64,000 nucleotides of DNA, from contig CM028334.1 of assembly GCA_016647705.1 (NCBI GenBank), positions 8,713,546 to 8,777,545 on the forward strand. Direction: 5' to 3'. This document shows, in pieces, positions 26,613-58,600 of the stretch (position 1 is its first letter; the number at the start of each line of letters is the position of its first letter). Source of the DNA: Eucommia ulmoides (taxonomy: Eukaryota > Streptophyta > Magnoliopsida > Garryales > Eucommiaceae). The notes under the pieces were generated by a model. The model ran no database searches and was not told the DNA's origin. It saw nothing but the letters and a program-made list of their open reading frames with translations. The position numbers and the translations under genes were made by a program.

Positions 26613-29600
26613 GTCGGAGACAATGACCTTGGGTATTCCAAAATGGCAAACTACGCTTTTCCAAATGAAGTCTCTGATTTTTTTCTTCGAGATCCACTCG
26701 AGGGGCTTAGCCTCAACCCATTTTGTAAAATAGTTGATTGCAACAACAAGAAACTTCCTCTACCCGAACCCTTGAGGGAATGACCCTAGGAAGTCAATGC
26801 CCCACTAGGCAAAGAGCCAAGGACTCGTCATGGGGACGAGGACGGTTGGGGGCAGTTGGGGATGAAAGGCAAATCTTTTGGCATTTGTTTTATTTTTTTG
26901 TGAATTATATGGAGTCTTTATTCATATCTGTCCAGAATTATTCATGTCAGATGAGTTTGTGACCCATGGATCTTCTTCCCGAGTGGTTTCTACACACCCC
27001 TTCATGAATTTTCCTCATTACGTAATCAGCCTTTTTTGGCCTCAAACATTGAGAGTACGGACCCAAGAAGGACCTTCGGTATAGCACCCCATCAATGAGA
27101 ATGCACTTTGTAGACCTGTACCGCATCCTTCTAGCCTCTACTCGGTCGGATGAAAGCATTCCATGCTAGAGATAGTCCTTGATCGGGTCCATCCAAGTAG
27201 GCTTGTCAGAAAGGGCACATATAACGGATATTTGGTCAGATACAACCGTGCTCGGCCCTTCTAAGTACTCGACGAGAACACTTCTCTTTAGGCTGTATTC
27301 CACTATGGAGGCCAAGTTGGCCAGAGCGTCGGCCTGTTTGTTCTCTTCTCCGGGGATTTGGTTTACCTGGACATTTTCGAAATTTTCCATTAGTGCCTTT
27401 ACCTCCCAAGATAAGCAGTCATGCTTGGGTCCTTGGCCGCGTAGTCTCCATTGACTTGGTTTACCACAAGTTGTGAGTTGTAGAAGACTTGGAGATTTTT
27501 GGCGTTGAATTTTCTTGTCAGCTTGAATCCAGCAAGAAGGGCTTCGTATTCAACTTCATTGTTGGTGGCCCTAAACCCCAATCGGAGGGCATATTCAATA
27601 TCTTCTCGGTCCGGGGTTACCAGAACCATCCCAGCCCCACAACCTCCTACGTTTAAAGAACTGTCCATGAAGAGATGCCACTTATCTGTGCCGAGATCAT
27701 CGTTTGATTTGAGATAGAATGAGGTCCCTTCCAGGATCGGTGCCTCCGACGGACCGAGCTGTGTCTTACGCTAGGCAGGATCCAAGCCATCCAGGCTGGG
27801 CTCTTCCGGGAGGGTTAGCTTAGCAATAAAGTCAGTCAGGATCTATCTCTTGATGGTTGTTCGTGGCCGATAGTCGATGTGGGATTGGCTTAGCTCGAGG
27901 CTGTATTTCATGAGTCGGCCAGAGACATCTGGGGAGTGAAGAATTTTCCTCAAAGGTTGATCAGTAAGAACGACGACTATGTGCGCTTGGAAGTATTGTC
28001 TCAGTTTTCTTGACGCAATGAGAAGGGCATAGACCAACTTCTCAAATTGCTGGTATCTTATCTCAGCATTGGTAAGCACTCGGCTCGAATAACACACAGG
28101 TCTTTCGACTCCATCTTTTTTCCAAACAAGGGTCACATTGACTGCTGTGTCCAAAGCGACGATATACAGGAATAATTCCTCCTTGTCCATGGGGGTACTC
28201 AGTAGCAACGCCGATAAGAGGTAAGTTTTGAACTCCTAGAAGGTAGCCTCATATTTTGTTGTTCATTCAAAGGTTTTATTGCCCCACAAAATTTTAAAGA
28301 AGGGGAGACATTTCTCCGAGGAGCGTGAAATAAAGCGGTTCAGGGCGAGCAGCCTCCCAGTGAGCATTTGGACTTCTTTCTTTGTATGAGGTAAGGCCAT
28401 TCTGAGAACGACACTTATCTGATCGGGATTGGCATCAATGTCGCGCTGGGATACCATGTAACGCAGGAACTTCCCCACTGAGACCCCAAAAATGTACTTA
28501 GTAAGGTTTAGCTTCATGCGATGGGCTCGGAGCTTGTCAAAGTAGTTCTGGAGATGGGAGATGTGATCAGATGCTTTGGTGCTCTTTAAGATCATATCAT
28601 TGATGTAGACTTCTATCGTTGAGCCAATCTCCTTCTTGAACATCTTGTTCACGAGCCTTTAATAGGTTGCCCCGGCATTACGAAGGCCAAAAGGCATGAC
28701 CTTGTAGTAGTAGGTGGCTTTGTCCATGATGAACAAAGTCTTACTTTTATCAGGAAAAACATAGGAATTTGGTTGTATCTAGCATAGGCGTCTAGGAAAC
28801 TCAAGAGCTCGTGCCCTATCGTAGCGTCTATGACCAAGTCTATTCTCGGCAATAGAAAGAAATCCTTAGGGCATGCCTTGTTGAGAAAAGTCCATGCAAA
28901 GTTGCCACTTATTCCCAGTCTTAGGGGCGAGGATGACGTTGAAGAGCTAATCTGGGAACTCCACTTCCTCCACCATGGCAGATTTCACTAACTTGTCCAC
29001 TTTTTGCTTAATGATTTTCTAGCGCTCTGGGTGGAATTTCTTTCTCTTCTACCTCAAGGGGGGATGATGGGGATCGGCGTAGAGATAGTGTATGGCTACA
29101 GCCAAATCAATCCCAGGAAGTTCATTGTGAGACCAACCGAATACGTCATAGTTTTTCCTGAGGAGATCAGTGAGCTCTTCTCACCGGGCCGCTTTGAGCT
29201 TGGCATTTATTCTGACAGTTCTCCCCTCGATGGTGGGGTGAATGGATACCTCCAATAGATCCTCACGGGGCCAAGGACGGGGTTCTTCATCTTGGGGATC
29301 GTCAATCGATATAGTTCTGAGATCAGATAAGGCCCTCTTGGTGCAAGACCTGGCTACCTCTTAGTCTTCTCTTACTTCTCCCATCTCTTCTTCTGTATCA
29401 TTTGGTGATAGGAAGAACTCACAGCCTTTAAGGTGGTTAAAGTTGGTCATCCCTTGATTGCGTTGTACGACGAAGGTCTGTCTATGATAAGAAACTTGGC
29501 CCACACCGTGGCCGACGTGGGCTTAGCACCGACCGTGATAGGAAGAGAGATCATGCCAATGGAGCTTACCACGTCTCTACCAAAATCAACAACGGAGGAG

Positions 29601-31626: not shown

Positions 31627-33113
31627 TGATAGGTGTAAAATACCTATCTACTTCTAAACTGGATTTGGTAATTTTCGAGTGTTTTATTTATATTTAATTG
31701 TTTTTTAGTTTGTTTTTATATAATTCAGGTGTAGGGACGCAAACAAGAGGCAAATGAGCGAAAACGGTGGAAAAATGGTGAAAATGTGCAAAGCCGGTGC
31801 AGGTGCTGTAACTTCAAGCCTATTCTTGACTACGATGCAATCCGATTTTGGAACAACTAAAAACTTGGAAGTTGTATATCTCTTAGCTTTCTATAGGTTT
31901 TTGAATCATCTCAATCGGAGCTCGGACAAAGATGCTACAGTCAAAACAAGAAAGTGTGTCAGGGTCAAGGCGGAAATAACTTTGCCTAGGCAAAGTAGCG
32001 ACAGAAAGTTAACCGACTTAAATTCGCCTAGGCGGAAATTCCTTCGCCTAGGCGAAAATTTGATAGCACAGAGATAGTTTCTGAGATATTTTGAACCCTT
32101 GTGCCTATTTATATCATTTATCCCACTTCCCTTAGGATGCTTAGATATTTTGAGACCCCCTTTCACCATGGATAGGATTAGATAATTTAGGAGTATATTA
32201 GATTAGTTTTAGGAAGTGTTCTTGGCCAAATCTTGAAGAACTAAAAGAGGAAGATCATTAATGGAGAAGAGGAAGCTCGGGAGGATCGTTCTTTGGCGAA
32301 AGTGGACTACTCCACTTTGAGATTTGTTTTTTCTTTCCTTGTTTCCATCTTTATACTTAATGTTTATTATTGATGATGATTATCTCCTCTTAATTTAATA
32401 TTGTAATGGCTAAGATCATGTTAGTTTAGTTAGATATTAGTTAGGGTTATATATAATTCATGTAAATATCTCTTTGGTTGAATATAAGTTATTTTAATGG
32501 TTTGTTATCCGTTTCCAATTGTGTTTACCGTTATGTCACGTTTATTATGTCTATTACGATAAACCGAGAATACGGGATTTGACACTTGGGAGAAGTAACC
32601 CCGGATTCGGACTAAGGATAAACACAACGCGACAATCCAATAACTCGGGAGGGAGTTGAATTATGTGCAATTCATGAGGTTGGGTCAAGACTCACGTGAC
32701 TATGTGTTCGGAAAGGCGTTCGAGGGGGACTTCGGCGTTAACGTGAAGTCATGTATTCGCTCGCTTTTTACTTGGAAAAGGGAGCGAGTGAGTTATAGAT
32801 ACCCAGATTGTTAGATGTGATAATAACCGTTATTGATAACTAAACTAATCCAAAAATATACTAAGTGAATGAAATCGATCCCTAGTTAATTAGTGTAATT
32901 AGAATTAATCCTTAGGAGTAGTTTTAATTAGTTTAATTTAAATATTAAATTGAATCATCAGGATAATATGAGACTACGTAAATTGTGGTACTCAATTATT
33001 CACACTTTTTCTGTGGACACGATACCCGATCTTAACCGATCCACTATATTAAAACTTTGACCTCATATACTTGCGAGAGTAAGTAGCGACGTATTTCACG
33101 TGCTACCAGTTGT
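31622..33113 (+). mobile_element. Solo LTR (1482 bp) with 5-bp target duplication
   Basis: The insert spans 31627-33108, beginning TGATAGGTGTAAAATACC and ending TTTCACGTGCTACCA. GTTGT flanks it exactly on both sides (31622-31626 and 33109-33113). Both outer flanks belong to the gag leader of element 2, which resumes on either side. The sequence is unlike the TGATGAGTG LTR family. It contains an inverted motif TTCGCCTAGGCGAA near 32040 and AAGTGGACTACTCCACTTTG near 32300. No pol is present, so it arose by LTR-LTR recombination. Orientation was assigned from the TG/CA ends only and is uncertain. Confidence 0.85.
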
Positions 33114-33244
33114 TATTCACCGTACTATTCTGATCTCTCGGCCGTGTAGAATGACTAGACCTTATGATCATTAAGCTTTAGCCGAGCTGGGAGTTGATGA
33201 ATGGAGAAAGACTTTTAGTAATCTTCCCATAGACGGTGTCAAAC
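33114..33244 (-). mobile_element. Element 2 leader and primer-binding site
   Basis: Next to the LTR end, the minus strand reads GTTTGACACCGTCTATGGG, the same primer-binding-type sequence as element 1. The leader continues toward gag and is interrupted by the solo LTR. Confidence 0.6.
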
Positions 33245-34181
33245 TGTTGATGCCAAATCTTGGCTAACGGTATGGTCTAGTCAAGGTGTTGTGGTCTTCT
33301 TTAGTGTTAGGATGAAGGTTTAGATGTTCCGAGATCAGTCCATCCGATCCGAACTAGGGTGGAGTTGGAGTGGTCCGAGATGGACAATGAAGCAACCTGA
33401 GTCTTCTGATCCGAGAAGAGTCCTTGTCTGAGAAGAGTACTAATCCGAGTTGGGATAAGATCCAACCTATTACTTGCGCAAAGGACTTACCAGGGTGGAC
33501 CCGGCGTGTTCCCTCCGGCGTGAGAATAAGAGCTCAAGAGAAGGCAGTAAAAATCCTTTTGAGAGTTGAGAAAGGAAGTAAGCACCTCACTTTTACCTCA
33601 CTTTTACCTTCCTTTATATAGGCAGTGGGTTGATTAGTAGTTGGAGGATTAGGGGCCTAAGTAGGGATTAGTGTCCTGATCTCGGCGCATGGCCACTGTC
33701 AGGGAAAGTGGGGGGATTAAGCCAGTGGGCCTGGAATTTTTGGCCTTTTTGCTGAGGCCGATGGATGATAGGTACTCACAAGTAGACAAATGGCCCGGTC
33801 CATGATGCCAGACGAATTCTTCCTACCACCCAGATTGCGAGGAGTTTCCTTCTCTGCCCTTCCTAGATGGTTGGAGACAAGAAGTGGGGTGTTTTTTTGA
33901 GAAGCTTGTTGAGTCGATATCCGAGATGGGCAATGTTGGCCTGAGAATAATACCAAGATGGAGAAGAGGTTCTTCATCCCTACAACGGCTCCGCTCGCTG
34001 TTCCAGGAAGATATTGCTAGTGAAGTCTCGGGTTGATCGGCATGGGCTGAGACACACCTATGGCCAGCACAATCTCCATACCTTTGCCTTTGTAGGAACT
34101 GGTCACATTGGAGAGTTACATACACATGGCGGTCTTTCGTTGGTTGCTTGGGGGTGACCATTTTCATTTTTACACTCATCA
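33245..34181 (-). mobile_element. 5' LTR of element 2, minus orientation
   Basis: On the minus strand it starts TGATGAGTGTAAAAATG at 34181 and ends TTGGCATCAACA at 33245 (937 bp). A TATA-like CTATATAAAGG lies near 33615 on that strand. It is related to the other TGATGAGTG LTRs but diverged. Its partner 3' LTR is absent, having been lost at the 26612/26613 breakpoint. Confidence 0.8.
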
Positions 34182-35103
34182 AAAGCATATATATGGAAGT
34201 ATTTCATTTGAAAGAGAACCAAATTGGGAACCAGAAATGGAAACGAGGAAGAAGAACTGGCGAGCAGTAACTAAAAAAGTATGTATGTGGCACTGTTGCA
34301 TGCGTTTCGTTAGCTGGGAGATGAAACGTGAAAAATAAAAGAAAATGTGATATATACGCAGGTAAGAAATTGTAGAAAACGGGAAAGAAAAGACGAGGGC
34401 ATATATGATATTTCCAAAATTGGTAATAAACCCTTTTTTAGAAAAGAAAATAAAGCATGAGGATGTCTAGTGATGGAGCTAAAAAATTTGTCAGCGTAAC
34501 GTAACCGTCGGAGGCCTGTCGCGATGGCTGGCGGTGGAGACATTGTCATTATCGTGGACTGATTTTGTGCGAAAATGAAAGACAAAGAGCCATCGTCTAG
34601 CTTTCTAAAATCAGTGACGTTCATTTGTATTCCTAGCGACGAACGATAAAGCTCCAGTGGAAAAGAACAGCCACTACCGAATTAGACCTCTCTTCGGCCT
34701 CTCTTTCTCCGGTGGGAGGGTGTGAGAATAGAACACTAAAATGAGTCCAATAAAGATATGAGGCATTAGGGTGTTAGGCTATAGGTGAGGAGGAAAATTA
34801 CAAATGAAGCCCTACACTTGCTATGGTAAATGATGCATGAGGACAAAGATCAAATGAAATTACGACATTGCCATTAGATATGGATAATTACAATAATACC
34901 CAGCGTTGGGGAAAATTAGGATAACATAATATGAAAAAGAACAAAATCAACCTCAATATTGCAAACTTGCTATTGTATTCACATTTTTATATATGTTATA
35001 AAAATAAGAAGCAAAAAGATCTCAGAACTCTCAAAGAAAAATTGTAGAACTATCTTCGAAAGAAAAAGATGGACTTGAAAAAAGCAAAAAGAAGATAAAA
35101 AAT
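34182..35103 (+). mobile_element. Probable 5' region of a decayed LINE
   Basis: No gene was recognised. CGGCCTCTCTTTCTCCGGTG and GGGAGGGTGTGAG near 34700 resemble leaders of plant LINEs, and LINE ORF1 begins 400 bp later. The 5' boundary is not fixed. Confidence 0.35.
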
Positions 35104-36390
35104 GTGCATGATCATCTCGAAATCATAGTAGATATGCAAGAGTCAGAAGAAGAAGATGAGAGAATGAGTGAGGATGACCCTGACTCGATGATGAAGTTGG
35201 TCCATGAGTCAATGATGAACTTCTCATTTGAACAAGCTGCTCATGTTGAATCTTCCATGCACAGCCAGACCAAATCCTTCAAGAATGCTCTAAATGGGAG
35301 AAAATATCATCCGAGGAAGATCCTAGAGAAGATGTATTTCGATGCGAAAGATAAGGAGATGGATGGGGAGGAAAACCCTAATCCAGGGTCTGAGGAGGAT
35401 TTGCATGGTGATGATATTCGTAAAGTCTTCATTCCTAAGTTAATCATCTCCTAAATTAGGGAGAGGTGGAAAGATACGTTGATTATTAGGTTCATGGGAA
35501 GATCGATAGGCTACAAAGTACTTTGTGACAGGGCTAGGATGATTTGGAAGCTCTAAGAGGACTTTGAGCTCATTGATCTTAACTATGGGTTCTATTTGGC
35601 CAAATTTGATCAGGTTGCTGATGCTCACAAAGTTCTTACTGAGGGTCATTGGGTTATCCTTAATCACTATCTCACAGTTAGAAAATGGAAGCCTGATTTC
35701 AAACCAAAGTTTGCTACGAAGTTACGTACGATTGTCTAGGTGAGACTTCCTAATATCCTTTTCCAATACTACGAATCTTTGGTTCTTTTCAGAATTGGTA
35801 GAAAATTTGGAAGACCTATTAAAATCGATGGAACCACAGCGGTGTCACACAAAGGCAAATTTGCAAGGCTCTATGTAGAAATTGATCTTAACAAGCCTCT
35901 GGTAGCCCACTTCCAAATGAAAGGTTTAGTTATCAGAGTTGAATATGAAAGTTTGCATGAGATTTTCTATACTTGTAGTCGTGTGAATCATCACACGAAG
36001 ATGTGTCCCTATGGAAAATCCTTACCGGAGAAAACTGGAACGCCGCCGAAGACAACGACCGGAATAGCTGAGGGCTCCACAACAGGAAACTCGAGTTCCA
36101 AGACTAATGATAATCATGGGGTCAACGTCAAATCTTCTCTGATGGAGCTAGGGGTAGAGGAACCCGTTGCCCTAGATGCAAGGGATGGTGGCTACGGGCC
36201 TTGGTTACCAGTTAAAAAGCAAAGAAAATTTGGGAACCATAAGCCCAAAAGAGACGCTAATGGGAAGAATAAGGGTCCCGCATCTAATGCTAATTTGGGT
36301 CAACAAGGAAATGTGGGTTATAGGGCCAAGAAGGCCAAAGTGTCAAACCCCACTAGAGGGACGCCTATCCATCCCAACCGTCGTACCTAA
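35104..36390 (+). pseudogene. LINE ORF1 remnant (DUF4283 plus zinc knuckle)
   Basis: Translation with a few stops gives the plant LINE ORF1 plan. An acidic N-terminus comes first. A DUF4283-like nucleic-acid-binding part follows (DTLIIRFMGRSIGYKVLCDR, FDQVADAHKVLTEGHWVI), then LYVEIDLNKPLVAHFQM. A CCHC-type knuckle reads FYTCSRVNHHTKMC, where the first Cys of the expected C-x2-C is Tyr. The C-terminal part is Lys/Asn-rich (GPASNANLGQQGNVGYRAKK). In-frame stops occur at about 35452, 35554 and 35737. Product would bind element RNA in an active copy; this one is dead. Confidence 0.75.
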
Positions 36391-39700: not shown

Positions 39701-40441
39701 GGAGATCTACTAAACCCCCCCTCTATGTATTTTTTTTGTGGCCATTATTTAGGAAATTTGGAAGGATAGAAACAAGGAAGTTATTGAAGGTTATATCCAA
39801 GACACTTCCCTGATTGTTTCCAAAATTAACTGTCTTGCGTATGATATATTGGAAGCTTTCTATCCCAACCAAACCCGTAACGACATTTTTATTTACTCTG
39901 GACCTAATTGGATTCCTCCCCCTGCAGGTGCCTTAAGCTTAACACGGATGGTAGCGCACTGCAATCCAGGGAAAGGTGGTGTTGGCGATCTGATAAGACG
40001 TATGGATGAAGCTTGGGTGATTGGCTTTTGGGGGCATTTGGATTCCTGTACCGTTTTGGATGCTGAGATCAGGGGCATTCATGCTGAGCTTTGCCTTGCA
40101 ATTACCAGAGGCTGCACGAGATTGATCGTGGAGTCCAATTCTCAAGATGCAGTCAACCTTATCAAAAGTGATTTCCCAGATACCTATCTCCTCAGAAAAT
40201 GGGTCATGGAATGTAAGTATATTTTTTAGAATCATGATTTCGAGCTTCAAGTCATCAGGAGAATCAACAACCGGTGTACAGACTTTCTTACTAGGATGGG
40301 GACGAATAGCAGAGTCGAGATGCACTATCTAGAAGAACCCCGGAAGGGCTTGAGAAGCTTTTGATTGCTGATATGTATTCGGAGGGTCCCCTCGTAGTTC
40401 CTTATGTTTTGTTTTTTCTTTCTCCACCTAAAAAAAAAAAT
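39701..40441 (+). pseudogene. LINE RNase H domain and 3' end
   Basis: From 39849 the frame gives GGVGDLIRRMDEAWVIGFWG, then LDAEIRGIHAELCLAITRGC, RLIVESNSQDAVNLI and, past a stop, VIRRINNRCTDFLTRMG. This is the LINE-encoded RNase H. The catalytic set is partly degenerate. A short 3' UTR ends in an A tract at 40431-40441, marking the LINE end. Confidence 0.75.
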
Positions 40442-40655
40442 AGATTTCAAAAATCTTTTTTAAAATATTTCAAATAACACAAATTAACTAAATAAATTTT
40501 CGATCGGGGTGTATCAAAGGTTGTATTAATTTGGCGAGTTGTTTAAACTTATAATGTATTTTTTTTTAAAAAATATTAAAATAGTATTACGTTTAACTTA
40601 TTTACGAAAGTAATCTCACCCGGGGATGTAATTCCGGGTTGGGGGGTCTGGCCGT

Positions 40656-40749
40656 ATACTCGGGGTTCGCAACCCCGAGTATGCAAAATTTGTACAAATT
40701 TTTTTTTTTTCGTTTTCCCTTTTAAACCTGGGGTTCAGTACCCCAGGTT
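40656..40749. repeat. Two perfect GC-rich hairpins in the left arm
   Basis: Hairpin 1: 40656-40667 pairs with 40671-40682, a 12-bp stem around loop CGC. Hairpin 2: AACCTGGGGT (40725-40734) pairs with ACCCCAGGTT (40740-40749) around a 5-base loop. Both are perfect, and the right arm carries only half-sites. Confidence 0.85.
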
Positions 40750-41365
40750 CTATGTAGAACCCGGGGTTTGCCTCCCCCCCCCCCCCCTCCAAAAAAACTA
40801 ACATTTTGGTCCAATAAATTTTTAAAGTTTTTAGCAATTTTGAGTTGATTAATGGTAATCTATCGATATTTTAAATAAATCTATTTTTTTTGTGTATAAA
40901 TTACGTTCAAAACACTCCATAATACTTTTTACAACAATAAAAATGGATAAATGGATGAATTTTAAAAAATCGCCAAAGTTGACCAGATGAGTTGTTTTGA
41001 TAATGGCGGAATTTTTTGGGCAATTTGGAATTAACAAAAGATTGCATGTCTGTAACAGAAATGAATCAAATTTTTTATATATAAACTATATTCATAACAC
41101 TACATAACAAAACTTAGAATACTAAAAACAGACTAATAAATAATTTTTAAATAATTATCAAAATTGGCCGGATGAGTTGTTTCGATGACGAGACAGTTTT
41201 TTTGAAAATTTTGAGTTAATAAAAGATAGTATATCCGTAACAGAAATGAACCTAATTTTTTTGTATACAAATTACGTTCATAACACTAAATAATAAAATC
41301 GAAAACATCAAAAATGAATGAGTGAATAATTTTTAAATAATGGTTATTGCCACAACATTTTATTG

Positions 41366-41755
41366 CTCTTCAACATTTCAAAAATAGTATGTTGCTCTTC
41401 AAATTTTGGATAGACATAATTTTGCGCTCGGTGGTCCGTTGGGGGCAATTTATTTTTTAAAAGTTGGGTCTGATCTGAATCATCACTCTGGTTGTTGAAG
41501 ATTTTAATTTTTCCAACGGGACAAGACGCACACTCGCGACGAAGATTTTAAATTTAGCCACCCAACACTTCAAATCCAAAATTGAATGTGAAAACGTGCT
41601 TTATTTGAAAAAATACTTGACCAAAACACCTATGGCGTTTGCCACACCTAGATCTCGAAAAAATACCGGAAATCAAAAAATAATTGCCCCAAACAGACCA
41701 TCGAGCGCAAAGTTATGTCCATCCAAACTTTTTCTATTATCTTACATAAGTTTTC
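41366..41755. mobile_element. Inner inverted-repeat element in the foldback loop
   Basis: The words GGATAGACATAATTTTGCGC and GGTGGTCCGTTGGGGGCAAT (41400-41455) face their reverse complements at about 41670-41735. The pairing is distinct from that of the outer arms. It may be a separate MITE nested in the loop or a former end of the same element. Confidence 0.55.
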
Positions 41756-42535
41756 TCTTCTCTTAACACCATATATTCCCTTATCCGTTTTTGGTGTTCT
41801 CGATTTTATTATTTAGCGTTATGAACGTAGTTTGTATGCAAAAAAATTAAGTGCATTTCTGTTACAGATATATGACTATTTTTCGTTAACTCAAAGTCTT
41901 CAAAAAAAAATTGTCTCGTCGTGAAAACAACTCATCCAACCAACTTTGATGATTATTTAAAAATTATTCACTGGTCCGTTTTTAGTATTATAAGTTTTGT
42001 CACTGGTCCGTTTTTAATATTATAAGTTTTGTTATGTAGTGTTATAAACATAGTTTATATACAAAAAATTTAATTTATTTCTGTTACGGACATGCAATAT
42101 TTTGTTAATTCCAAATTGCTAAAAAAAAATTGTCATTATCGAAACAAATCATCTGGTCAACTTTGGCGATTTTTTAAAATCCATCAACTTGTCTGTTTTT
42201 AGTGTTGTAAAAAGTATTATGTAAGGAGTGTTTTGAACATAATTTATTGCCAAAAAATTAGATTTGTTTAAAATATCGAGAGACCACCGTTAATTAACTC
42301 AAAGTTGCCAAAAACTTAAAAAAATTATTGGGCCAAAACGTTATTTTTTTGGGGGGGGGGGGGGGGGAGGGGGGGGGTTAAACTCGGGGTTCAGTACCCC
42401 AAGTATACGACCAAACCCCCAAACCCAGGGATCACATCCTCAGGTGAGATTATTTTCGTAAATAAGTTAAAAGTAATATTATTTCAGTATTTTTTTTTTA
42501 AGTAAATTATAAGTGTAAACAACTCTTAATTTGGC

Positions 42536-42895: not shown

Positions 42896-44190
42896 ATGGT
42901 GCTGGTATTGGCATTGGGCGATCTTCACATGCCAGATAGGGCATCTGATCTGCCTGCGAAGTTCAAGTCAATGCTTGTTCCAGGAAAGATCCAGCACATC
43001 ATTTGCACTGGAAATCTATGTATTAAAGTAAGTTTATGTGTTTAATTCCTCTATCTTTGTAGATGACTTCTGTTTCATAGTCATGTTTAATTGTTGTATT
43101 TGTACTGATTCTAAGAACTATCATTAGAAAAGTTAGGGTTGTTCTTGCATTTCATTCGAGTTTTCACTTGATTTTGAACAGAACATTTGGAAATTGGTTT
43201 AGTGTGTTGGCATTTTTATACTAATTGAATAGGGAAGCATTTTTTTTTTTGGATACCATGTAAATTAGTCTGTGATTGTTTATTAATTACTTGTTAATTT
43301 GCGTGCAATTCCTCCGGTGAATTTAAATTTTCCCATAGAAAAATTGATGCCTTCCTTAAGCTGATGCAGGACTACACAGGTTATTAAGAAATAACAGAAA
43401 ATATTAAGATATTCGAGCACACGAAAAGTGGCAAGCGCAAGGCTTTATCTAGAAATGGTCGCATTGTGATATTTCTTAGTTCAACTAAAAAGCACCCTAA
43501 AATTGTGTTGTTATCTTAATTGTCTGATGAATTTGATGAAGCCAATATGTTCTTTCATTTTCCTGAAGTCATCCAATTGTTTTCTCTTTCATTGCATTCC
43601 GTGAGATTCATCATGAACCATGAATTTGTTCTCAATTTTGTTCTCATCATTAATATCAATGATGGATGCAGACAATTAACTGGACACATTTTTCATCACT
43701 AACTCTCTTACATTCACATGCCCATACTATGTATGAGCATTGGAGTTGTCTCTCACGTTGTCTTGCCGTTCTTAACCCCTCACCATAATATGCTTCTATA
43801 ATCATCTAATCTTAATCGCACACTAGAACTCTCTATGCCCCTTTTTTTTTCTCTTCCTTTTTTGTCTTTCTAGACATTCTTACTTTGTATGAATATACAT
43901 ATGAAACGCTTTGCCCATTTTCATATGTAGATTCATACAATTTAAGCCTTTTAAACTAATTGCCTGAAGAAAAAGAAGGTGATATTATTTCTGAAGAAAA
44001 TAAAAAGTTAACATGCTGATGCTAGTCGAAGATATCGCAGAGAAAGAATTGAATGCATTTGCCTTGAGGCATATATGTCCCAGCTTTAAGTTTGGTCGGG
44101 TTTATGATTGTTTTATAGTACATATTTTTCTTTTAACTCGAAATATTTGGTCATGTCCGATAAGTAATCCACTGCTAGCAGACTGAGAGT

Positions 44191-51904: not shown

Positions 51905-52040
51905 TAGGTAGGATATTGAGATAACATGAGAGGCTTGTATTGACTTATATGATTACATAGATATATAGGAAGTCTATATGTAGGAGATGATTGGGTAACC
52001 CTGGTAGGGTTAGGGTTTGATTTTCCTAGTGGTATGATGG
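51905..52040 (-). mobile_element. Probable 5' LTR of the copia element
   Basis: It shares several blocks in order with the LTR at 47183-47323 and is followed on the minus strand by ATTCTGATATGGAATC, in primer-binding-site position. Ends are approximate; identity between the LTRs is low, indicating an old insertion. Confidence 0.45.
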
Positions 52041-52464
52041 TGATGATGTGGTTGCGCAAAAGTGCACGAGGTTGGTGGTGGCACAGAGTGATAAATGATG
52101 GTGTTGGAGGAGCTGAAATAAAAGGAGATAAGGAGAAAGATATAAAGAGAAAGAAAGATTATATATCTAATCATCTCGGTTTTTTTATAAATAAGCGAGA
52201 TTATAAATAAGTAAACCATCTCGCATTTTGATTATCATCACAGCATTTTTACATCATCTATTATAGTTGGTAAACGTGATAATAAATATCGTACTTTGTA
52301 TCACACTTCCATTTATCACGATTAGTTTAGGAACAAAAATTGTGATAAAAAATCTTTTCATTGTTTTTAACTATGATAGATTTGGTTTTTTAGTGTGATG
52401 GTGGTGGTCTACGTGCGGTTGTGGTAGCGGTGGCATTTACTGTTGTAGGGTGGTAATGGAGCAG
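52041..52464. other. Intergenic, GGT-rich
   Basis: GATGGTGATGATGTGG-type trinucleotide-rich sequence without a recognised gene. Confidence 0.4.
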
Positions 52465-52672
52465 GTGATTAGGGAGAGAGAGAGAGAGAGAGATTGTTTG
52501 CCGGCCTTATTTCTAGATCTGAAAACCCAGATCTTGTTAATTTTCTGATTTGAAAATCACATGGTGGTGATTGGAGAGAGAGAGAGAGAGAGAGAGAGAT
52601 TGTTTGCCGGTCTTATTTTTCGATCTGAAAATCCAAATCTTATTAATTTTCTGATTTGAAAATCGCACGGTG
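52465..52672. repeat. Tandem duplication of about 102 bp around a GA microsatellite
   Basis: Unit 1 (52465-52566) and unit 2 (52567-about 52672) each run GTGATT, a (GA)n tract, GATTGTTTGCCGG, CTTATTT, GATCTGAAAA, and TTAATTTTCTGATTTGAAAA. They differ by point changes and GA length. Confidence 0.85.
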
Positions 52673-53825
52673 ATGGTGGTCGTCGCAAAGTTGTGGTAGT
52701 GATTGTGTTTATTATGAATCAATGATTGTGGATCCAGTTAGTCGAGGTGGTGGAGGCATGTGTTATGGTCTTCACGCGATTGTGATAGCGGTGGTGGAGA
52801 CATGCGCGATGGTGGCAACTATGACGCGGTGGTGCTGAGTCTGTGATTGGCAATAGAGGCGAAGGAAGAGAGACACGGGGGAAGAGATGGACGATTGGTT
52901 GAGTAGAGGGAGCCTAAGGTTGTTTTCGGAACAACAAAAACGTAAAATAAGATTATTATTTTTTTATAAAATGTATTTTAGAAAGAAAAAAAAAAAGGTT
53001 TAGAATCCATTTTGTATTTCATTGTTGAAAGTGAAATTGTCACTAAAATTTTATTTTCTTTAAGAAATATTAGACTCGATTACTATCAACTAAAAATTCC
53101 TAAAATGTAGCTTATTCTAAATTAGAACATAAACTCCTAACATTACCACGAACGGCATACAATATAATTTATTCTTTAATCCAAACAAATAAAACTCCTA
53201 GTTCCAGTCCAAGAAATATTAACTGTTAGGAAGTCATAATTTCCTATGGTGGGCACATAAAATTAATTAAACAATTATAATATGAGTTATTAATTTTATA
53301 GAAACCCAAACAAATAATATAATTAATGAGTTCAGAAAATATTTAATAGATATAGACTTCAAAATGTGTAGTTACCCATATTAGACAATTAAAGTTAATG
53401 GGACCTGTGTTGACTTAATATATAAAGAACATTACAAAGGTTATGGTTTCCAAGGCTAATAAGAAGGCTACTCATCTATTTTTTTTCCATTTGAAAAAGA
53501 GAGCTCATTGAGGAACATCAAGTAATTAGCATGTCAAAAACCTCTACCTCGACGATTCATTGTCATGGATTCAGATACTTTTATTTATGTATTAAAGAAC
53601 TTTTGATAATTTAACATAATGATTTGTGGCTAAGAATTCTATTAAGATTTATGAATTATTCCTAACATTAACATCAACTTTATGCTATATTAATGGAATC
53701 TTAATTCAAAAAAGGGTTAATGACCTTCTATTCCCTTATATTTTACTTATTTTTTTTTTATTCTATGTAGTCTAGAGTTTTACTAGATTGTTCCATTTTA
53801 ACTTAAAAAATTCAAAAATAAATAA
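52673..53825. other. Intergenic, no gene seen
   Basis: GGTGG-rich at the left (to about 52900), then AT-rich. Nothing recognised as coding or RNA. Confidence 0.45.
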
Positions 53826-54620
53826 AATTAAAATTTTCTTCCAAATTTAACATAAAATAAATAAAATTATTTTTTATGTTAATAGTTATATATTTATATC
53901 TTTACTAAAAAAATAGAAGTAAAGAAATAAAAAATAGAAGTAAAATGCAATTATTTTATACTTTTTAATAAATTATTAATATTTTCTCTTTAGTCAATAA
54001 TATTAAAGAGTGAAGTGTAAATTTATAGAAGAGATAGATAAATAAATTATGATCAAATTATAAGAAGAAAAAAAAAAAAAAACAATCGTTGAAACGAAAA
54101 ATCTCTTGTTCCGAACTTGACTTGGTCACTTTATCTACACATAAACCTACGTAATGCATATGAATCTATGTATGCGTGCGCGTCCTCCCGAATCTCATAA
54201 TAATAACAATACAGAGAGCACAACTCAATTCTATGAACATTCTTACACACAAGAAAGAAAGAGAATGAATCTAAAATTAAATATTTCATTCAAATTTTAC
54301 ATAAAATAAATAAAAAATTATATTTTATTTTAGTATTTATTTAAAAAATAGAAGTAAAGAAACAAAGAATAGAAGTAAAATTAAATTATGTTATACTTTT
54401 TAATAAATTACTAATCTTTAGTCAATATTATTAAGAAGTGAATGTAAATTTATAGAATATGTGGATAAAATAAAATAAGATCTAATTATAAGAGGTGTAA
54501 AAAGCAATTAACCGTTGAAAAAAATTATCTCCTATTCCGAACTGGACTTGACTTGGTCACCAACGTACTGGACTGCATATGAATCTATATATCTGCGTGC
54601 GCGTCCCCCCGAATCTCATT
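53826..54620 (+). repeat. Tandem duplication of the region upstream of the RING-H2 gene
   Basis: Unit A (about 53826-54199) and unit B (about 54272-54620) share, in order, CATAAAATAAATAAAA, AAATAGAAGTAAAGAAA, ATACTTTTTAATAAATTA, CTTTAGTCAATA, GTAAATTTATAGAA, CGTTGAAA and TTCCGAACT. They end with GCATATGAATCTAT, GCGTGCGCGTCC and CCGAATCTCAT. Unit B ends about 60 bp before the RING-H2 start codon; unit A is separated from it by about 70 bp of different sequence. The copies are diverged by substitutions and small gaps, so the duplication is not recent. Confidence 0.85.
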
Positions 54621-54632
54621 TCGCTTTCTTAG
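54579..54632 (+). other. Possible upstream ORF, 17 codons
   Basis: An ATG at 54579 opens a 17-codon frame (MNLYICVRVPPNLISLS) that ends in TAG at 54630-54632, 47 bases before the RING-H2 start and in another frame. If transcribed it would be a candidate uORF. The equivalent ATG in unit A is also present. Confidence 0.3.
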
Positions 54633-54679
54633 CCGTCAAGAAAACCCTATCATCCGCCGTTAATCTTTTTCTCTCCGCC

Positions 54680-55327
54680 ATGTTTTCCGACGATCTCACC
54701 GATGATTACTGCGACGCATGGCAGTCCGACGAATTACCAGTGCCCATAACGGTCCCGGAAACCGTAACCGCGCCTGTGTTCTACGTGGTGGTCGAAGCTG
54801 AATTCTTGTACGCGATGGCCGGTGACGAAGAGGAATCTCCGTTTCCGTTCAGAGATAGCCATGTCGTCAAGCACTACTGGGTCCCCTCTCCGGACCTCGT
54901 CCATCGCCGTTCCGCCGGAGCCACTATCAGCGACATTCTCTCAGGCGCCCGAATCCCAATCCACAAGCAGGCGGTGATGCTTCCCCGCATAGCCAAATGC
55001 GCCGCGGAGATTGCCGGCGCTGAATGCAACTCTGGACGCCGGATTCTCCCTATGATGATCTCTATTAGCGTGGTTTATGACTGCTCCGATTGCGATTGCG
55101 ACAACGCGGGTTTGGATGAGTTTGTGACGGCGGAGGCGGCGAAGGCGGCGATGCTGGAGAAGGTGAGGGTTGGAGACGATTACTGTTCGATATGTCTGGA
55201 AGGGTTTGAAGGCGGTTGTGTGGGGTCGAGAATGCCATGCCGCCATGTGTTTCACGGCGATTGTATCGTACGGTGGCTGGCTTTCGGCGATTCTTGTCCG
55301 TTGTGCCGCTTCCACATGGATCCTTGA
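54680..55327 (+). CDS. RING-H2 finger protein, probable E3 ubiquitin ligase
   Basis: The intronless gene encodes 215 residues from the ATG at 54680 (MFSDDLTDDYC) to TGA at 55325-55327. The frame is open further up to a TTG at 54515, but there is no earlier in-frame ATG and that part is the duplicated leader. A C3H2C3 RING-H2 finger lies at residues 169-209: C169, C172, C187, H189, H192, C195, C206 and C209, in the pattern YCSICLEGF, MPCRHVFHGDC and SCPLCRFH, with the usual Trp (W199) in the E2-contact helix. All eight zinc ligands are present. The N-terminal 165 residues contain no named domain; no transmembrane segment was seen. RING-H2 proteins of this class recruit E2-ubiquitin to substrates in cytosol or nucleus; the substrate is unknown. 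GC content is well above the flanks. Confidence 0.9.
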   Translation: MFSDDLTDDYCDAWQSDELPVPITVPETVTAPVFYVVVEAEFLYAMAGDEEESPFPFRDSHVVKHYWVPSPDLVHRRSAGATISDILSGARIPIHKQAVMLPRIAKCAAEIAGAECNSGRRILPMMISISVVYDCSDCDCDNAGLDEFVTAEAAKAAMLEKVRVGDDYCSICLEGFEGGCVGSRMPCRHVFHGDCIVRWLAFGDSCPLCRFHMDP

Positions 55328-55635
55328 TTGAATATTTAGAATTTTCCTTAAATTCATATTTACGGTTACGATTTTCTTGTTTTATTGTGCAGATTCTTTT
55401 TTTGGAAATTATGCCCCTAATTAATGCGTAGTCCATCAAGTTTCTTGTTTTGATTATTATTTTTATTTTAATTAGGAATTTTCTGTATTTAAAAATACTA
55501 TATTAACTTTTAAATTTCAAAATTTAAAGCTTAGTATATTAAAAATAATTATCCCTAGTATAGTTAATTAATTACACACCTTCAACATTATTTACAAAAA
55601 CTTATTTTACAAATTATCATAAATCCCCATAATCA
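55328..55635. other. Convergent spacer between RING-H2 and ABCA genes
   Basis: The AT-rich 308 bp must contain 3' ends of both convergent genes. No clear shared poly(A) signals beyond AATA-type words were fixed. Confidence 0.5.
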
Positions 55636-58600
55636 TCACGAGAGAACGTTGAACGCCTGGGCCCCGCGCGCCACCTTAATGAACACGTCCTCCAAGGTCG
55701 TGTCCGCTAGGCCCCACGCATGAACCACGAACTGGCTCTTGGCTTTCTCGACTACCCGGAAAACGTCAGAGATTTTGACCTCTTGCTTCGGGATCTCAAA
55801 CTTGAGGGTCCCGGATATTTGGTAGATCTTGTTGGCATTGGGCGACAGGTTGTGGACCAAACTCTCGACTTCGTCCTCGTGGTTTGACACGGTTGTCATT
55901 GTGAAAACATACGATCCTCCGTATCTTGCCTTCAACTGTAATTGGACAAAGAATTAATTGTGTTGTGTAATAATGTATCAGATGTACAAATAAAATGAAT
56001 AAACAACGTGATATTGTTGAACATGTTATTGTACAAGTTGGCAGATCCAGAAAATTGGCCAAGGAGAGGCTAAAAAAAAAAATAGGGATCTACTGGATAT
56101 TTGAAAGGATTGCAAGAAAGTTTTAAATTTTTACATGCATTCCTTTTTAATTTCAATTCCGAGGCCCAAAATCTACAATTCCAAACGCAACCTAAGAAGA
56201 AAAACATGTTTATGCTATACTGATACAAAACCCAAAATACCTCTTTGGGATTTCCGATACATTGCAGGCTGCCATCGACAAAGATTCCTAACCGATCGCA
56301 TAGATGCTCTGCTTCTTCCATTGAATGTGCTGATCAAACCATTTAAAAAAATAAATAAATAAATAAATAAAATTAATCCATATCATATTACAAGTTAGAA
56401 TCAATAAAATCAGACAATACACATCAAAAAGAAACGTACTGGTGAGAATAATGGCTCTATCTTGCTTAGCCCGTTTCACCACATTCCACAAGTTATTTCT
56501 TGAAGCTGGATCGAGTCCAGTACTGGGTTCATCCATGTAGACAACCTAGAAATGTTTTAAGAATTTGAGGTTAGTTGTATTTCAAGAAACATGTGTATTA
56601 TTACTCTGTCTGTGTGTAAAAAAGGAACATACTTTAGGATTGCCAATTAGTGAAATGGCAACGCTGAGCCTCCTCTTCATGCCGCCACTGTATTTTCCAG
56701 CTTTTTTATCAGCAACTCCTCCATGAAAAAGGTTAACGCTCTTCAGAGATTCCTCTACCGCCTGAAACATCAAAATATCATGAACATGGCAACCATGACA
56801 GGTGATGATTTTGTTATTAGAAGCTTCAGCCATAGAATGATGAACTTCTGGTAACTTGCTGGCATTTGTTTAGTGTTTCTGTTTCCCAAAAAACATGGAA
56901 CAGAAACATAAAATATAGGAGAAATTTTGTTCTCTCAAAAATTTATTCTAAAAATCTGCAAATCTGGGAACATAACAGAAATATAATCTGTGTTTAGTGT
57001 TCCTGTTCCCAGATTTCTGTAATTGATTCATTCTAAAAATCTTGGAGCAGAACAGACAGAACAGATTTTTTTAATTTCACACTTTTGTTTCTATTCTCAG
57101 TTTTTGGGGAACAAGAAATAGAAATCTGAGAACAGAAACACCAAACGAACGCCACCTTATGAATGATAGACACGTACGTGGCCTTCAAAAAAACAGAGTT
57201 TTTTTCCCTTTATCTGGACTACGGTTTGGTGGTCCCAAATCAATTGATTTGGGATTTTAAAACCGCAATTTGGGGTCTCCAAACTGCCTGCCAAACGGGT
57301 CTTTAATAGCTCTAAAATGCAAAGGGAAGGCAATGGTGACTTACTTGGGTTAAAGTAGCACCCTTAAGGTTCTTGAGCCTCCCATAGAAAAGTAGGTGCT
57401 CTCTTCCTGTTAGGGTTTCCCAGAGCAAACTGTACATAGTTTTCCAACATGAGATTAGGTCACAATGAAATATAATTTTGGGCATTCAGAAAAATGGAAA
57501 AAGAAAAATAATAATAGTATTTGTTCTTACTCATGCTGTGGGCAAACACCCATGTTTGCATATATAGTATCCATGTGAATCTGTATATCCATACCCTCAA
57601 CAAACGCTGCTCCAGAGGTTGGCTTTATGAGCCCGATCATCTGCAAATGCAGAACAAGTTAACTTCTTTCCCAAGTAAACAAAAGCCTCGCGTTTCTTGT
57701 ATTACAAGAAAAGATTAAATGGAATACATTCAAAGAAAACATATTTCATTTTTTTTTTTTTTTCGGGGGGGGGGGGGGGGAGGGCAAGGTGGGGGAGAGC
57801 TTACCATGTTAATAAACGAGGTTTTGCCAGCTCCATTGGGACCGAGCATACCAAAACATTCGCCTTGGGGTATAGCAAGTGACAACCCTCTCACTGCAAT
57901 TTTTTCCGGGTTCCCATCTCTTCCGGGATACACCTTCTTGAGGTTATCGCTTATGATCGAATGACCCGTGCTCGATTCAAGTAGTAATTGTTCAACCCTC
58001 TCTCTCTAAACAAAAAAGCAAGGAGCAAACTTGGGTGTTGTTATTCAACTGTGATACAAAACTCAAAAACTAATTTACAAATTTTCTTTACAATTATCAA
58101 TCACTTAACCTTTTTTTTTAATAGTATCCACCTTCATTATTTAACAAAAAATAATTTTTTTTTTCTACTCACATTTTTAGCTTTTTATCTCTACGCACAA
58201 TTTTCTCTCACACACACACATTCAATCAGTCACGTTAATAATTTATCACTTTTTAACTTTTAATCAAGCATATTGTATCACTTGTAATTTTATTCTTTTA
58301 ACCCCCACTTCGTTCTCCAAATTTCCAATAACCAAACAAATTTTCAAAAATTTTCAAGACTGTTTTTCGAGTTGTAAACCAAATGTCCCTTAATATTTGT
58401 TATGAATGAGATAGAACTCTATTTGAACAAAGAAAAAATCCATTTTTTTTACCTCCTGAGAAACATCGGGTTTTTCCATCTGAACAAAGACTTTGGATCC
58501 TTGTCTATGAAAACTAGGCCTCCGAAAAGAAGACGCAGCCTTTTTCCTGAAACTTTGGACAAAAAATAGAGGGCTTTTTCCTGTCGACATAACTTGATCT

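Follow-up and report, generated by a model that had tools for sequence, protein, structure and literature searches.

Foldback MULEs are an already known kind of transposon, FARE and MuTAnT being examples, and the element described here is FARE-like in kind. FARE, the Arabidopsis foldback elements that are now placed within the MULEs, is described as having likewise long, palindromic and modular arms, with a MULE transposase in members of the family; this likeness is one between descriptions and not between sequences. MuTAnT of Medicago truncatula is similarly presented in PMC4486113 as a non-autonomous foldback MULE with modular long TIRs and a separate autonomous partner, often located near genes. 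Internal tandem structure in MULE arms, as observed here, is reported for the multiple-long-TIR MULEs (PMC3310237), and Tm1 of root-knot nematodes is described as a similar combination of composite foldback TIRs containing tandem repeats with a Mutator-type (Phantom) transposase (PMC3169594). In the account of Mu killer in maize (PMC3440606), an inverted Mutator sequence likewise adjoins a gene and is proposed as a source of hairpin RNA.

The stretch of DNA analysed here (the window, 64,000 nucleotides) corresponds to C10:8713546-8777545, and the genome that was searched with it comprises 946,670,599 bases in 391 contigs. An earlier note on this DNA had claimed a perfect 10-bp duplication around a 1990-bp element, and this was observed: TTAATTTGGC is present at 40526-40535 on the left and again, as a perfect copy, at 42526-42535 on the right, with no other occurrence on either strand of the 64 kb. 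A 10-mer repeated exactly 2000 bp downstream was found at 4 of 62000 positions, and the other three were homopolymers. The 10-bp length of the target-site duplication was confirmed in sibling copies, and the exact duplication around the window copy falls inside the range of 8-11 bp given for MULEs (PMC6446971). Between the two duplications lies the element itself (40536-42525, 1990 bp), which has the outline GAGTTGTTTA...TAAACAACTC, the final 10 bases being AAACAACTC with a T before them. Its boundaries are unambiguous, because the bases immediately outside both ends would not pair. The term 'near-complete', used previously, is too weak, since both ends are present and the element is complete.

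The arms, which had been put at about 800 bp each, were found to be longer. The left inverted arm occupies 40536-41458 on the plus strand (923 bp) and the right one 41675-42525 on the minus strand (851 bp), and they enclose an unpaired loop of 216 bp (41459-41674) without a recognisable protein. Alignment of the two arms gave 702 identities and 101 mismatches plus gaps, which corresponds to 87.4% of 803 ungapped sites and a K2P distance of 0.139. In all, ten inverted-repeat pairs of at least 60 bp within 8 kb were detected in the window; eight are those of the element, which leaves two pairs, at 71% and 79%.

From the outside inwards, each arm opens with an AT-rich terminal segment of ~85 bp; a GC-rich palindrome block carrying a C or G tract comes next, then three ~185-bp units in tandem, and last an inner segment. 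In the left arm (plus strand), the terminal segment with the GAGTTGTTTA end lies at 40536-40620, and it is followed at 40621-40798 by a GC-rich block with short palindromes of the form GGGGTTC...ACCCC and a C14 tract (40774-40787). Units 1, 2 and 3 then occupy 40801-40988, 40989-41173 and 41174-41358 respectively; both unit 2 and unit 3 begin with GAGTTGTTT, and the likeness of unit 3 fades past ~41340. In the right arm (minus strand), the terminal segment is at 42446-42525 and the palindromic block matching that of the left arm is at 42341-42445, with G17 and G9 tracts (42351-42377) and without ~80 bp of its left counterpart. Unit 1 of this arm is at 42151-42340, unit 2 at 41934-42150, enlarged by a 32-bp tandem duplication (41968-42032), and unit 3 at 41749-41933. 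The foldback anatomy suggested in the earlier note is thus borne out, as both arms are long, composite and inverted, with three tandem sub-repeats of ~185 bp in each.

Compared across the arms, the units are 87, 87 and 78% identical in register and 57-73% identical out of register. Since the in-register units are more alike, tandem growth either predates the present arm pair or the arms have been kept alike. We infer that the ~185-bp unit was multiplied in tandem, lengthening the arms, before the present copies spread. The C14 tract and the G17/G9 tracts occupy matching places in the two arms, and C or G runs of at least 8 were present in only some siblings. As regards the GGGGTTC-ACCCC palindromes (40656-40749 and 42382-42404), the lone one in the right arm has its centre inverted relative to the second one in the left arm, and looks as if it had been flipped in the hairpin.

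The DNA around the element was also annotated. On the plus strand upstream of it we identified a zinc knuckle and a DUF4283 domain (35740-36390), an RNase H-like RVT_3 domain (39753-40229) and an A-tract (40430-40440), which together we take to be a decayed plant LINE. The LINE-like A-tract end lies ~85 bp before the left duplication of the element, and a search for the LINE's target duplication gave no exact match of at least 10 bases between 40429-40535 and 32000-36000. A retrotransposon fragment with RT and RNase H on the minus strand (27300-28700), presumably of the Ty3 type, had 1638 first-look candidates in the genome. The 4-kb bin at 52001-56000 is CpG-rich (O/E 1.19 vs 0.52-0.85 in the other 15 bins), and an ORF with a RING-H2 domain lies inside it at 54512-55327. 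No RNA family at gathering score and no tRNA was found in the window. Further copies of the element inside the window were looked for and rejected, as the four weak matches obtained (best 42.5 bits) were at chance level, with 2 of 40 local resamplings scoring higher.

In the genome-wide search, 40 of 1826 first-look candidates were scored; one was the window copy itself and the other 39 were all analysed as siblings. These 39, drawn from the best 40 of the 1826 candidates, are 79-86% identical to the window element, and in 14 of them the alignment starts exactly at query base 11, where the element begins. Once alignment had placed the ends, a 10-bp duplication was observed beside the GAGTT/AACTC ends of the siblings, exact in 16 of the 39 and with at most one mismatch in 20, while duplication lengths of 7, 8, 9, 11 and 12 were each seen in at most one copy. 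At this threshold of one mismatch the 10-bp duplication was not seen in 19 of the 39 siblings, and the ends were mispaired in at least five (L027, L030, L031, L042, L046). The 64 ends of 32 copies read GAGTT(G/C)TTTAC, with 10 of the 11 bases fixed in at least 58. Copies ending elsewhere, which had been named as the case that would speak against the element, were not seen among the siblings with placed ends.

For the end pattern of the window subfamily the genome has 89 forward and 92 reverse matches; the reversed control had none. Among 100 of the 181 places, we counted 23 inward-facing end pairs (two share one right end), of which 14 were spaced 1.7-2.3 kb, and no outward-facing pair; long inward-facing pairs of 10.5 kb (C10:10888014-10898466), 4.9 and 4.7 kb were also present among these 100 places. 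Pair counts here, and those given below for the transposase-encoding relatives, are lower bounds, the lists of ends covering 100 of 181 and 100 of 188 places respectively and the list of MULE hits 150 of 2936 candidates. Arm statistics were computed from 33 siblings and the window copy, after dropping those with a placed-end length outside 1500-2300 (L027, L030, L031, L042, L045, L046), and substitution counts from 30 siblings and the window copy, L009, L015 and L047 being additionally dropped. Arm identity in the 33 siblings was 84-91%, save for one short copy at 76%. Within a copy, left and right arm differ by a distance of 0.104, compared with 0.125 between opposite arms of different copies; belonging to one copy thus makes two arms only a little more alike.

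Empty sites were sought for four copies by searching their joined flanks genome-wide. Sibling L011 (C8:16151940-16153978) interrupts another repeat, and 16 of the 40 listed matches, 68-73% identical, run through the junction and cover 30 nt or more to either side of it. Other copies of the short repeat that hosts L011 are sometimes found side by side in opposite orientation, and this repeat is perhaps an inverted-repeat element itself. For sibling L036, a short (~60 bp) uninterrupted copy of the target was found a few dozen bases away. The joined flanks of the window copy matched only themselves in the genome search.

No transposase was found in the window element by Pfam among the 10 of its 36 ORFs of at least 30 aa that were scanned, the longest (95 aa) included. 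To this extent the earlier statement that the element carries no transposase stands, and on the 10 ORFs scanned it does not encode the transposase that would make it an autonomous MULE. A captured gene in the loop was considered and rejected, as neither Pfam nor PDB (at E <= 1) gave a match to the 95-aa ORF; we regarded as noise a lone hit to Baculoviridae Ac81 in a different frame, whose E of 0.045 did not pass the cut-off.

We therefore turn to elements elsewhere in the genome that do encode a transposase. A search with PF10551 gave 150 scored hits of 2936 candidates, of which 18 have an open frame of 757 codons; 15 of these share one score and, by score alone, are probably nearly identical. 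The equal scores among these MULE open frames suggest a recent spread. At C3:5816083-5826343 (10,261 bp; L078, L081, L082) an element was delimited with the ends GAGTTGTTTAC...GTAAACAACTC and the duplication CATGTTTCAC on both sides. It contains an ORF of 754 aa in which a PF10551 MULE domain was identified at E 3.5e-17; a MuDR DNA-binding domain narrowly missed the cut-off (E 2e-5). Units of ~190 bp in tandem make up its arms (191 bp x 16.1 and 187 bp x 3.6 by TRF), and its left arm is a 3-kb array of them.

The ends of this C3 element align with the right end of the window element from the first base, at ~75% identity over 80 bp (E 8e-9), a score that 0 of 500 shuffles attained. Their match to the left end is weak (E 1.6e-4 and 4.4e-4), the score being reached by 1 and 5 of 500 shuffles. 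Sibling L040 has the body of the window element (83%), yet its ends are 81% identical to those of the C3 element over 53-58 bp, and it can be regarded as a bridge between the window element and the transposase-encoding one. Convincing family ends were found at L078 alone among 33 MULE loci, 30 of which were examined with 1.5-kb flanks only. No family end was found at L079 and L080 (8 kb each), and thus the genome also contains other MULE families. The 30-base end of the transposase-encoding element has 94 + 94 occurrences in the genome, and 14 of the 26 facing-end pairs among 100 of the 188 places hold a MULE hit. On contigs 1-13, 29 of 109 MULE hits have a listed end no more than 12 kb away, where 200 random placements gave a mean of 0.28 and a maximum of 2. 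Exact 10-bp duplications were seen around 4 of 5 further transposase-encoding elements of the C3 kind, and the duplication was missing from 1 of the 6 transposase-encoding elements examined.

Taken together, the element is very probably a complete, non-autonomous foldback MULE. Its GAGTTGTTTA ends would have been recognised by a MULE transposase supplied in trans, and its insertion into TTAATTTGGC in the region upstream of VPS29 would have duplicated exactly 10 bp. The MULE class, proposed earlier from structure, holds because the siblings share ends and 10-bp duplications (20 of 39 with at most one mismatch) and because related-ended elements that also have 10-bp duplications encode a MULE transposase. 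By the ends it shares with a MULE-transposase element the window copy is counted a MULE, with the reserve that the transposase was read in related-ended elements and not between exact window-subfamily ends. It would not be unreasonable to suppose that the transposase of the C3 element, or its close kin, moved the window subfamily. A MITE is a very short non-autonomous element of a few hundred bp, and this designation was rejected for an element of 1990 bp.

Exon 1 of VPS29 is located at 42896-43027 on the plus strand (match to VPS29 in PDB, E 1.8e-18), and its start codon lies 370 bp beyond the end of the element, in agreement with the distance given earlier. The later VPS29 exons, recognised by short peptides, are present as well. 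In a literature search we found no published account of such an insertion at a plant VPS29 promoter. Folded as RNA, the element forms one long hairpin with 700 arm-arm base pairs at -956 kcal/mol, while 25 dinucleotide shuffles fold at a mean of -400 kcal/mol (SD 12), which places the element at a z of about -45. As an addition compatible with its being a foldback MULE, the element might act as a source of hairpin RNA, from which dsRNA and small RNAs would direct methylation that reaches the VPS29 promoter. We regard this as a possibility, though an unlikely one, and an effect on VPS29 as less likely still. The hairpin is imperfect, the only two exact arm-arm matches of at least 21 nt being 32 and 23 nt long. 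Moreover, VPS29 is transcribed away from the element, so that its own promoter does not transcribe the hairpin, which leaves read-through from upstream or the element itself.

Published systems point in both directions. In PMC12595863, 634 of 885 Arabidopsis inverted repeats are given as lying within 3 kb of a gene and ~486 of the 634 as yielding 24-nt siRNAs, and a MITE upstream of sunflower HaWRKY6 is described as altering chromatin loops. For rice, TIRs of gene-carrying MULEs are reported with 24-nt small RNAs and CHH methylation (PMC4858842). Against this, read-through transcripts of Mu killer are described as occurring in plants that failed to silence (PMC3440606).

Cytosine decay in the family was also examined. 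Relative to the family majority, C-to-T (or G-to-A) decay in 31 copies was 14% in CG, 16% in CHG and 12% in CHH, vs 1.5% for A/T sites; with C/T mixtures read as C, the values in the family copies were 18, 18, 16 and 1.1%. Decay in all three contexts alike speaks for a hairpin source. However, seven other repeat pairs in the window likewise decay in all contexts (pooled CG 0.32, CHG 0.39, CHH 0.26), and therefore all-context decay is no speciality of hairpins here and the siRNA reading is weakened. The arms and the loop differ in a manner that favours it. In the arms CHH decay exceeds that of the loop (16.4 vs 11.2%, p 0.008; stricter, 12.8 vs 10.1%, p 0.025) and still does so after trinucleotide matching (p 0.005 and 0.012 at two thresholds), and CG decay is lower in the arms than in the loop when matched for context (p 0.037 and 0.017). 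These p-values are approximate, since sites share ancestry, and the arm-loop comparison was conceived only once decay in all contexts had been noticed. The ratio of CHH to CG decay is 1.01 in the family arms, 0.63 in the loop and 0.83 in the seven other repeat pairs.

The window copy itself ranks first of 31 for CG decay and also for A/T transitions, and general divergence may therefore account for some of its CG excess; its rank of 24 for CHH decay speaks against a hairpin source. Low CpG as a sign of methylation was tried and rejected, as the CpG O/E of the element is 1.08 vs 0.72 for the window, a sign against heavy methylation at CG; values in the 33 siblings range from 1.10 to 1.74, making the window copy the lowest.

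The arm-loop pattern of the family is faintly suggestive of a footprint of hairpin-guided methylation. With CHH decay faster in the arms and CG decay the opposite, the family might be a long-standing, self-made source of small RNA that methylates its own arms and, in trans, MULEs with similar ends, a proposal that we consider doubtful and advance only tentatively. If it were true, copies beside genes such as VPS29 would be standing nuclei of methylation. Long-armed foldback copies near genes provide a natural test of whether methylation is drawn by the shape of a hairpin alone, and the comparison of CHH decay between arm and loop offers a sequence-based way to ask this in any genome with a large foldback family.

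Other identities for the element can be weighed against the foldback MULE. One is that it belongs to the MULEs with duplicated, or tandem, terminal repeats described by Ferguson and Jiang and is not a foldback. In favour of this, left units 2 and 3 and right unit 3 all begin with the terminal 9-mer GAGTTGTTT; five exact copies of it are present in the 64-kb window, all inside the element, where 0.9 were expected. For that class PMC3310237 states a requirement of at least 100 bp common to external and internal TIR, which the arms do not have. Past the 9-mer no significant likeness was detected between the terminal segment and the units in eight comparisons, the scores being reached by 23 to 224 of 300 shuffles, and the idea that the terminal segment is a full copy of an arm unit was rejected on the same basis. 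We consider this identity very improbable.

Target duplications of the P and hAT superfamilies are 7-8 bp in length. The duplication here is 10 bp and related-ended elements encode a PF10551 MULE transposase, which makes a foldback element from another superfamily, P/Galileo-like or hAT, extremely improbable. In its favour, several superfamilies are described as having evolved foldback arms (PMC3169594). The inverted structure is all that speaks for a palindrome formed in place, by inverted tandem duplication or by chance, with no transposon involved; this reading is refuted by the exact 10-bp duplication, the same-ended siblings genome-wide and the empty sites of siblings, which leave it next to no probability.

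The foldback MULE described here also differs from the known systems in several respects. In the account of MuTAnT (PMC4486113), 90% of the elements are 200-300 bp long, with a 9-bp duplication, GGGG ends and TA-microsatellite targets, whereas the window family is 2 kb long with a 10-bp duplication and GAGTT ends. In the multiple-long-TIR MULEs, as described in PMC3310237, whole TIRs of at least 100 bp are duplicated, while in the window element just the end 9-mer recurs. Tm1, according to PMC3169594, has an animal host, a repeat unit of ~14 bp and a 9-bp duplication. Terminal inverted repeats, often long ones, are a mark of MULEs, and the arms of 923 and 851 bp exceed even the 14-500 bp that PMC6446971 names in its text for its own set of elements, although one table row there reads 640 bp. 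Mu killer is described as a rearranged MuDR copy with mudrA sequence for which silencing was shown (PMC3440606), the window element being at most a candidate for it. What was a structural guess is now a defined family: its ends are exact, its duplication measures 10 bp, it has siblings, and a related foldback MULE encodes a transposase.
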